From: an uncultured Desulfovibrionaceae bacterium
Lineage (GTDB): Bacteria > Desulfobacterota > Desulfovibrionia > Desulfovibrionales > Desulfovibrionaceae
DNA length: 64,000 nt
Assembly (NCBI GenBank): GCA_949299515.1
Contig: CASGAP010000009.1
Span: forward strand, 1 to 64,000
Direction of reading: 5' to 3'
Shown in pieces: positions 172-36,390 of the stretch. The translations under genes were made by a program, and so were the position numbers. The number at the start of each line of letters is the position of its first letter. The first letter of the stretch is position 1. A model generated the notes under the pieces. That model was given only the letters and a program-made list of their open reading frames with translations, had not been told where the DNA came from and did no database searches.

Positions 172-300
172 GGACACGTTTTTTTTCCGGGGGAAATGAT
201 TGCTTGCTGTTTATTTACGTAAGGTTCGCAAGCTCTCTGATGCAAACGCCTTATCGTCCTTTTGGTGGGCCCTTGGTTCGCCTCATTACGCGGAATTATT
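172..300 (-). repeat. Dispersed repeat, copy 1 (degenerate)
   Basis: Reverse-oriented, decayed copy of the intergenic family best seen at 36075-36377. The recognisable part starts near GGACACG (about 172), runs through GGGGGAAATGATTGC and the GTAAGGTTCGCAAGCTC core, and reaches TCATTACGCGG near 290. The far end cannot be placed; the element could extend to about 470. The small reading frame kept open in other copies is frameshifted here. No protein-coding gene is seen between 130 and 1016; this copy and copy 2 account for much of that gap. Confidence 0.6.
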
Positions 301-558
301 AAAGCTAAAGCGAAAAATTCGGCAAAGCCTTGTAAAATCGGTGAATAAAAGCGCCGAAAAAATTTGTAATAATCTGCTTTTAATATTGTTGGAAACTATT
401 TTTCGGGGAAGAATTTTTAAAAGTATTCGTTTGCTGTCTGTCAGTGTAACGTTTTCAGGTTATAACGATTAACAGTGAGGTCTGTTTATTTTGGTTTGTA
501 AAACAATATTATTTTTGTAGTCAGAATTTATTTTTTGCAATTATACTTGAAACTATTG

Positions 559-833
559 GAGAAGTGTTTACAGAGTATTATCTGCAGATGTTTAGTGTGT
601 GTTAAATTCAACATTGTAATCTGATGTTTTCTGTGAAGCCTGTATTCACGTATGTGTCCGGCGGCAAACGGAGCGCCGCGAAGTTTGACAACGCCGGACA
701 CATACTGTGCTATGAGGGGGAGCGGGGGAGCCACCCAAAGGGCGACAATTCGTTTGCGTTAGTGAGTCTGCGAACCTTACGCAAATGGACAGCAACGCAA
801 TCATTTCCCCCGCAAAAAATAAAAAAACACAGG
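559..833 (+). repeat. Dispersed repeat, copy 2
   Basis: Plus-oriented copy. It holds a strong hairpin with a 14-bp perfect stem, GTATGTGTCCGGCG (650-663) with CGCCGGACACATAC (692-705), and an inner CAAAC/GTTTG stem. The conserved core follows (GGGGGAGCCACCC, then GTTTGCGTTAGTGAG, then CAATCATTTCCCCC at about 798-811). The right end is near AACACAGG (833). The left end near 559 is a guess from a weak match to the terminal motif. The stem sequence differs from that of other copies although the structure is kept. Confidence 0.7.
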
Positions 834-16847: not shown

Positions 16848-16885
16848 CATTTTTCCCTTGCGCAGAACGCATATCTGTCTTAATT

Positions 16886-17183
16886 AGAGTATGTTTCTGA
16901 ATTAATTATATTGATTATAACCGGTTTGAAACTTATTATAAGAACAGATTATTTTACAGTTTATTTTAATTGAGAAAATGAGTTTCTGTTTTTCTCATTT
17001 ACTGTGTCTACTGAACCGAAGCCGAAATTTTTGGCAACGTTCCGTAAATACCTGTAATGAGGGTTTGGGGGAGCCACTCAAAGGACAACAGGCCGTTTGC
17101 GTTAGTGCGCTTGCGTGTTTTACACAGATGGACAGCAACGCAATCATTTCCCTCAAGAAAAAAAATAATTTTGAAACACTCTT
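16886..17183 (+). repeat. Dispersed repeat, copy 3 (full length)
   Basis: A 298-bp copy. The left end AGAGTATGTTTCTGAATTA and the reverse complement of the right end, AAGAGTGTTTCAAAATTA, are imperfect inverted repeats. Inside are the hairpin region GCCGAAATTTTTGGC (about 17023-17037), the GGGGGAGCCAC core and CAATCATTTCCC. It lies between the fusA terminator and the cation antiporter gene. An extra fragment resembling the right end (AATCATTTTTCCCGG, about 17203-17217) follows and forms its own hairpin. Confidence 0.82.
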
Positions 17184-18779: not shown

Positions 18780-18880
18780 TAGGGGAGTGTTTAAATATTT
18801 TTCCGGGGAAATGATTTTATCAGACCCTTTATTGCCCTGCATTTGCGAAACCTTGCCAAATTGCCGGTACAGTAATTATA
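18780..18880 (-). repeat. Internally deleted copy of the dispersed repeat
   Basis: Read on the minus strand this stretch has the hairpin flank GGCAAGGTTTCGCAAA joined almost directly to AATCATTTCCCCGG and the terminal AAACACTCCCCT, so the conserved core is missing. It lies head-to-tail beside copy 4, both in minus orientation. Confidence 0.6.
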
Positions 18881-18915
18881 GCTAATATGAGTAAAAAAAA
18901 TTTTTTTCATAATTG

Positions 18916-19206
18916 AGGAGTGTTTCCAAATTTTTTTCTAGATGATTGCGTTGCTGTCTATTTGCGTAACGTTCGCAAACTCACTAATGCAAACGACTTG
19001 TCACCCTTTGGGAGGCTCCCCAACCCTTCACATTACACGGTATTTACGGAGCTTTGCCGCAGGTTTTGGACTATGTTCCGTAAATACCGTGTAATAAGAG
19101 AGGGAAAAATTTTTTCTAAATCAAAACAAACTTTAAAATTGTCTCTTTCTATCGATTTTTTTTTACAAGTGCTATAATTAATACTATTAATTCGGGAAGA
19201 TACCCT
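18916..19206 (-). repeat. Dispersed repeat, copy 4 (full length, strongest hairpin)
   Basis: A 291-bp minus-oriented copy. Its ends read AGGGTATCTTCCCGAATTA and AGGAGTGTTTCCAAATT, both inward. It contains a perfect 19-bp stem (19032-19050 with 19077-19095) around a 26-base loop. On the plus strand a small frame beginning MIALLSICV is open for about 49 codons. It lies between the antiporter gene and the convergent tpa gene. The rest of the 18702-19313 gap shows no gene. Confidence 0.82.
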
Positions 19207-19305
19207 AAAATTGTTTTATAGATGGTGTTATAACGGACAGAATCAGTACAGATATTTCGGAAATATTGTATAATGTGATATGGTAGTTGAGGTATAAGGC
19301 TTTGT

Positions 19306-29762: not shown

Positions 29763-30126
29763 GTTAAAAGGTTTGGGATCAATAATAAATTTAAAAATTA
29801 TTTCCTTTTATTTTTCCATATTGAATAAAAAAAACAAAGCATTAAAATAAAATTATATTAAAAATATATGTATTTTTTGCATATTATAAATATTTTATGT
29901 TTATTGAGCTTTTTACTGCATAGAAAAATTATTTTATGCATGATATTTTCTTTATTATTGTGCTTTATAATGAAATAATATGTATAATTTATTTTTAATG
30001 CATTTTATAAAGTTTTCTGTTTATTCTTCTGCGCCGAATTAATCTTTGCTTATGTCTGCATTATCTTTTCGTTAAAGAAATTTATATTGCAATAATCATA
30101 AAAAAGCAGTATAAAAAAAGTCTAGC

Positions 30127-30203
30127 TAGGGGAGCCGAAAGGCTGAGAAAGGATTTGCCTGACCCTTTGAACCTGACGCAGGTCATTCTGCCGTAGGAAA
30201 GCC
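30127..30203 (+). ncRNA. TPP riboswitch (THI element) upstream of thiC
   Basis: The stretch from GGGGAGCCGAAAGGCTGAGA to CCGTAGGAAAG contains both conserved blocks of the thiamine pyrophosphate aptamer: CTGAGA with GGATTTGC in the pyrimidine arm, and ACCCTTTGAACCTGA in the pyrophosphate arm. It senses TPP and turns off thiC. Confidence 0.95.
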
Positions 30204-30217
30204 ATTTGGATTACCTT

Positions 30218-32261: not shown

Positions 32262-32291
32262 GTGCGGCAGCCAGAGTTTTCGGAGCCATTT

Positions 32292-32573
32292 AGGGTATGT
32301 TTCCGAAATAATGATGTAGAGTATGACGATTGTAAAAATATCAACCGAAATTATTTGTTTTGATTTGGGAAATGCATTTTCAGCCGTTCATATTCGCGGT
32401 ATTTGCAAAATCGAAGCCAAAATTTTCGGCAAGGTTCCGTAAATACCGCGCAATGAGGAGCCGGGGGAGCCACCCAAAGGGCGACAAGTCGTTTGCGTTA
32501 ATGAGCTTGCGAATTTTACGCAAATGGACAGCAATGCAATCATTTCCCCCGGAAAAGAATTAAGAAACAGACT
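32292..32573 (+). repeat. Dispersed repeat, copy 5 (full length)
   Basis: A 282-bp copy. Left end AGGGTATGTTTCCGAAATA, right end (inverted) AGTCTGTTTCTTAATT. The hairpin stem CGCGGTATTTGC/GTAAATACCGCG flanks an inner GCCAAAATTTTCGGC fold. The core GGGGGAGCCACCCAAAGGG and CAATCATTTCCCCC follow. It lies between two convergent genes. Confidence 0.85.
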
Positions 32574-36071: not shown

Positions 36072-36074
36072 TCC

Positions 36075-36377
36075 AGGGTATGTTTCCGAATTAATCCCAT
36101 TGAGTACAGCAGGTTAAAAAATATCGACAGAAACAGACCGTTTTAAAGTTTGTTTTGGAAAAAAGTTTTTTCAGCTGTTCTTATTTACGGTATTTGCGGA
36201 ACCGAAGCCGAAACTTTCGGCAAGGTTCCGTAAATTCTGTGTAATGCGGGGCTTGGGAGAACCTTCCAAAGGGTGACAAGCCGTTTGCGTCAGTGAGCTT
36301 GCGAACGTTACGCAAATGGACAGCAGCGCAATCATTTCCTCCAAGAAAAAAAGAAAAATAATCTTGAAATACACCCT
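36075..36377 (+). repeat. Dispersed repeat, copy 6 (full length, reference copy)
   Basis: A 303-bp copy starting four bases after the preceding stop codon. Ends AGGGTATGTTTCCGAATTA and, inverted, AGGGTGTATTTCAAGATTA. The hairpin at about 36191-36233 has arms TTTGCGGAACC and GGTTCCGTAAA around GCCGAAACTTTCGGC. The core (GTTTGCGTCAGTGAGCTTGC, then GCAATCATTTCCTCC) follows. On the minus strand a frame starting MIALLSICVTFASSLTQ is open for about 54 codons. Confidence 0.85.
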
Positions 36378-36390
36378 AGTGATGTTTGTA

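Follow-up and report, generated by a model that had tools for sequence, protein, structure and literature searches.

The window, by which we mean the whole 64,000-nucleotide stretch of DNA that was analysed, contains four near-complete copies of an intergenic repeat of about 300 bp, the interior of which holds two hairpins (hairpins 1 and 2), as well as three decayed copies. The positions of these copies and of their main parts are as follows, G001 being the genome of a relative:

180 to 363, minus strand: decayed copy
638 to 826, plus strand: decayed copy; its hairpin-1 sequence (650-705) is unrelated yet remains palindromic
16885 to 17183, plus strand: copy 1, long form, between two plus-strand genes; orthologous place occupied in G001:C21
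17000 to 17052, plus strand: hairpin 1 of copy 1, partly decayed
18798 to 18908, minus strand: decayed fragment adjoining copy 2
18914 to 19207, minus strand: copy 2, long form, reverse orientation, common to G001:C21
19036 to 19091, minus strand: hairpin 1 of copy 2
32291 to 32573, plus strand: copy 3, long form, with an intact TA on the left and a mutated right end, between convergent genes
32395 to 32450, plus strand: hairpin 1 of copy 3
32470 to 32538, plus strand: insert in hairpin 2 of copy 3, specific to the long form
36074 to 36378, plus strand: copy 4, long form, with the left TA changed to CA by mutation and the right TA kept at 36377-36378
36186 to 36241, plus strand: hairpin 1 of copy 4, with an outer stem of 18 bp and an inner stem of 6 bp
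36262 to 36330, plus strand: insert in hairpin 2 of copy 4, specific to the long form and lacking in the short one

Apart from the repeats, the window carries a TPP riboswitch at 30118-30216 on the plus strand.

The four near-complete copies had been described in an earlier note made from the letters of the window, and all were found again where it had placed them, with profile E-values of 1e-96 to 1e-80 that are partly so by construction, as these copies are in the profile. For the search we used two profile HMMs, one for the long form, built from seven copies including the four in the window, and one for the short form, built from five. In the window's own genome (G000, a 1.76-Mb draft) this gave at least 76 distinct copy places, a lower bound that comprises scored profile candidates and the regions fetched around their matches. 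The earlier note counted four near-complete and at least three decayed copies, seven in all, and the genome count is far higher. The copies form two size classes, a long form of ~300 bp and a short form of ~243 bp, the latter missing ~68 bp inside hairpin 2. Short copies mostly share 94-100% identity, with one at 84%, and five contig ends of the G000 draft lie inside short copies, which is what young, assembly-breaking repeats would produce. The copies are many and of graded age. Neither the ~243-bp nor the ~300-bp element contains a transposase, as had been noted for the window copies, and both sizes are within the 100-400 bp of miniature inverted-repeat elements (MITEs). When copy 4 was compared with plasmid and phage records, no match was found.

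Both ends of near-intact copies read TA-GGGTRTGTTTCYNAATT, in which TA is the duplicated target. TA directly precedes 47 of the 52 exact ends (GGGTRTGTTTCY) and is present at both sides in 15 of the 18 near-intact elements, which include two insertion sequences; these counts are somewhat inflated as part of the loci was fetched with a TA-containing pattern. In the end given by the earlier note, the first A belongs to the TA target. It had seen no clear target-site duplication, and this has to be revised: the duplication is TA, one side of which is intact at each of the four window copies (16885-16886, 19206-19207, 32291-32292, and 36377-36378). The duplication is invisible there because the opposite end of each copy is mutated. 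All six genomes of the genus carry the 19-base end, which was found in none of the 143 others sampled from the family, and the control gave no hits.

Direct signs of insertion came from the comparison of orthologous gaps in relatives. At G000 C1:96662, upstream of dnaX and between dnaX and another gene (dnaX being named from its sequence), the filled site reads TTC-TA-element-TA-ATC, and the empty site in G001 reads TTC-TA-ATC, with a single TA. The same gene junction lacks the element in G003, G004, and G005 as well. The element is also missing from G001, G003, and G005 at C12:186064, where the G000 copy is truncated at one end. The places of copies 3 and 4 (32292 and 36075) lack the element in G001 and G003, with flanks too diverged for exact boundaries, so that base-exact filled and empty boundaries are available at C1:96662 only and at none of the four window copies. 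Copies 1 and 2 occupy the orthologous places in G001 and are therefore older than the split between G000 and G001; a second copy appears to be nested within copy 1 in G001:C21. The outcome that the earlier note had named as contrary to insertion, conserved rather than inserted sequence in the gaps of relatives, was not found, although copies 1 and 2 are old enough for G001 to share them. As judged from these sequences, the element is mobile.

A candidate for the source of this mobility was found within the same genus. G003 contains an 832-bp insertion sequence (C1:1482195-1483026; L081:1196-2027) with the same ends as the MITE and TA at both sides, and its transposase is a DDE enzyme of the IS5 family (NF033580, 123 bits with a cut-off of 110; PF01609, DDE_Tnp_1, 4e-14). 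Two open reading frames are present, the first of which as listed is only 64 amino acids long, and when one frame is read through, it stops upstream of the second. Further such insertion sequences are located in G004:C22, with both ends, and in G005:C43, with one end beside an interrupted transposase. No matching transposase was found in G000, where PF01609 and the partner protein both gave nothing, or in G001 and G002. The 832-bp insertion sequence is likely the autonomous partner of the MITE, and it looks like a member of the IS427 group of the IS5 family. Elements of this group, such as IS1248 of Paracoccus, are about 830-865 bp long, have two reading frames, and mostly generate a 2-bp duplication (PMC3281130); the G003 element is alike in size, in its ~14-bp inverted repeats, in its 2-bp duplication, and in its two reading frames. 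The MITE differs from this group in that it lacks a transposase and has an interior that did not arise from the insertion sequence by deletion. Separately, four loci at G004 contig ends (L115, L118, L119, and L120) belong to a different IS5-type element with ends TAGGGGCTGTCTCT, which is probably multi-copy.

Genes could be assigned to either side of 55 copy places, and 36 of these gaps are convergent, 16 co-directional, and 3 divergent; by comparison, 5 of the 45 gaps in the window are convergent, and the copies are enriched between convergent genes (Fisher P = 2e-8, on the basis of our own simple gene calls). The overlap with any called gene is at most 11 bp at all places. Within the window, the earlier note had made copy 3 the one exception to a convergent setting; there is one exception among the four, yet it is copy 1, and copies 2, 3, and 4 are flanked by convergent genes. 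Three copies in G000, L003 (C1:96662), L074 (C9:271696), and L199 (C12:61594), run 2-3 bp into the end of the adjacent gene, whose stop codon thus includes the TA of the element end. The young copy L058 (G000:C1:17607-17851) sits in a relic of another repeat, which has many copies in G003 and is found near matches to IS200-type Y1 transposases.

What calls for an explanation in the element is its maintained palindromic core, the folding part being unusually well kept. In the 18-bp outer stem of hairpin 1, 13 of the 18 pairs are changed on both sides among 37 distinct copies, and 74 double-change cells were counted, compared with 23.5 after shuffling and 9-26 when the controls were slid; the strength of this covariation is approximate since the shuffles keep the relatedness of the copies. 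Mean outer-stem pairing is 0.84 both in the 17 full-ended copies and in the 33 copies with partial or no ends. G-T mismatches (48 cells versus 75.6 after shuffling) are depleted in the same way as A-C mismatches (40 versus 64.1), a pattern that speaks against selection acting on a single RNA strand. Hairpin 2 contains a G5/C5 palindrome, the block GAGGGGGNNNGGGGGAAATNATTTCCCC, which was found in 30 of 149 genomes and in 11 of the 44 sampled genera of the family, with no hits for the reversed control, and is thus more widespread than the MITE. Within the genus the block adjoins hairpins of quite different sequence, and outside it further G/C palindromes often follow. A contig scan for exact matches to the hairpin-2 palindrome, CTT/AAG stem included, gave two contigs of one Mailhella MAG. 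Quite different palindromes next to a G-rich block of this kind were also seen at L019, L046, and L048 in G000 and at 650-705 in the window.

These data suggest that the MITE consists of IS5-type ends around a more widespread palindromic module, although the order of events is a matter of inference. The reverse priority, in which the family-wide G5/C5 block is the primary mobile unit and the IS5-type ends were gained in this genus only, would account for a block that extends over 11 genera when the ends are confined to one, and for blocks in G002, G003, and G005 that often have no such ends nearby. However, near-intact copies in G000 and G004 are bounded by IS5-type ends at TA, and neither boundaries nor a target duplication of the block itself could be established, and we regard this order as rather unlikely. 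The strong compensatory changes in hairpin 1 and the location of copies at gene ends are what one would look for in a conserved structured RNA or a terminator family that is mobile in appearance only. This is very improbable in view of the filled and empty sites and of the fact that neither RNA strand is favoured; moreover, the hairpins of the short form lack a following T-run on both strands, Rfam gave no match above the gathering score that covers the element, its only hit in the window being the TPP riboswitch elsewhere, and a permissive scan of four loci gave nothing convincing. Lastly, REP/BIME-type palindromes spread by an IS200-like RAYT (Y1) transposase are likewise extragenic palindromes between genes, and both the enrichment between convergent genes and the family-wide range of the hairpin-2 block alone would suit them, but they are hardly credible here since the copies have terminal inverted repeats with a TA duplication and no Y1 transposase was found in the host genome G000 (PF01797 unmatched) or in G002 and G004.

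We are therefore highly confident that the ~300-base repeats are a MITE, a gene-less small transposon with the same ends as an IS5-type insertion sequence, in line with the earlier proposal of a MITE or another non-autonomous element and supported by the filled and empty site with its TA duplication and by the same-ended IS5-family insertion sequences in relatives. Mobilisation by an IS5-type transposase, acting in trans as we infer, is very probable as well. An IS427-group-like DDE transposase of the IS5 family would recognise the GGGTRTGTTTCYNAATT ends, insert the element at TA, duplicate the TA, and in this way move the MITE without being encoded by it. Insertions would survive mostly between convergent genes, and some at the TA of stop codons, these being presumably harmless places. 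The 243-bp form was probably amplified last, and the transposase may since have been lost from G000 or may be missing from this 91%-complete draft. The interior would be the family-wide palindromic module and not a remnant of a transposase gene. More tentatively, the arms of this module may stay complementary through a process acting on the DNA itself, be it replication template switching that corrects one arm from the other or selection on the two strands, and hairpins with quite different stems would in this way outlast the decay of the terminal repeats. Template switching has been proposed before for RNA hairpins (PMC8794818).

The kind of element, a MITE, is already known, and the family appears to be new. 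We found no earlier paper on miniature inverted-repeat elements of Desulfovibrionaceae or on palindromic intergenic repeats of Desulfovibrio in a search that left most subscription journals outside. The Correia elements of Neisseria and ERIC are likewise short, mostly intergenic, multi-copy, and palindromic with terminal inverted repeats (PMC10969869), but their ends differ from those of the MITE, and Correia elements have been reported mainly upstream of genes, whereas the MITE is mostly located between convergent genes. QMITE1 and QMITE2 of Coxiella burnetii are likewise MITEs with stable stem-loops (PMC5896051), and QMITE2 resembles the present family in having full-size and smaller versions, mostly in 3' untranslated regions (PMC10969869). 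The direct repeats of both are of another length and composition, those of full-size QMITE2 being 7-9 bp (PMC5896051) compared to TA here. An apparently unreported MITE family, together with the likely source of its transposase, can be described for gut sulfidogens related to Taurinivorans and Mailhella, in which it provides a marker of recent genome change. With at least 76 copies of graded age and a covarying hairpin in one genome, the family offers a natural test of template switching versus selection in maintaining long palindromes. As a minor observation, TGCTATAAT is present near the left end of several copies, without conservation in all, and by its sequence it could be the extended -10 of an outward promoter.
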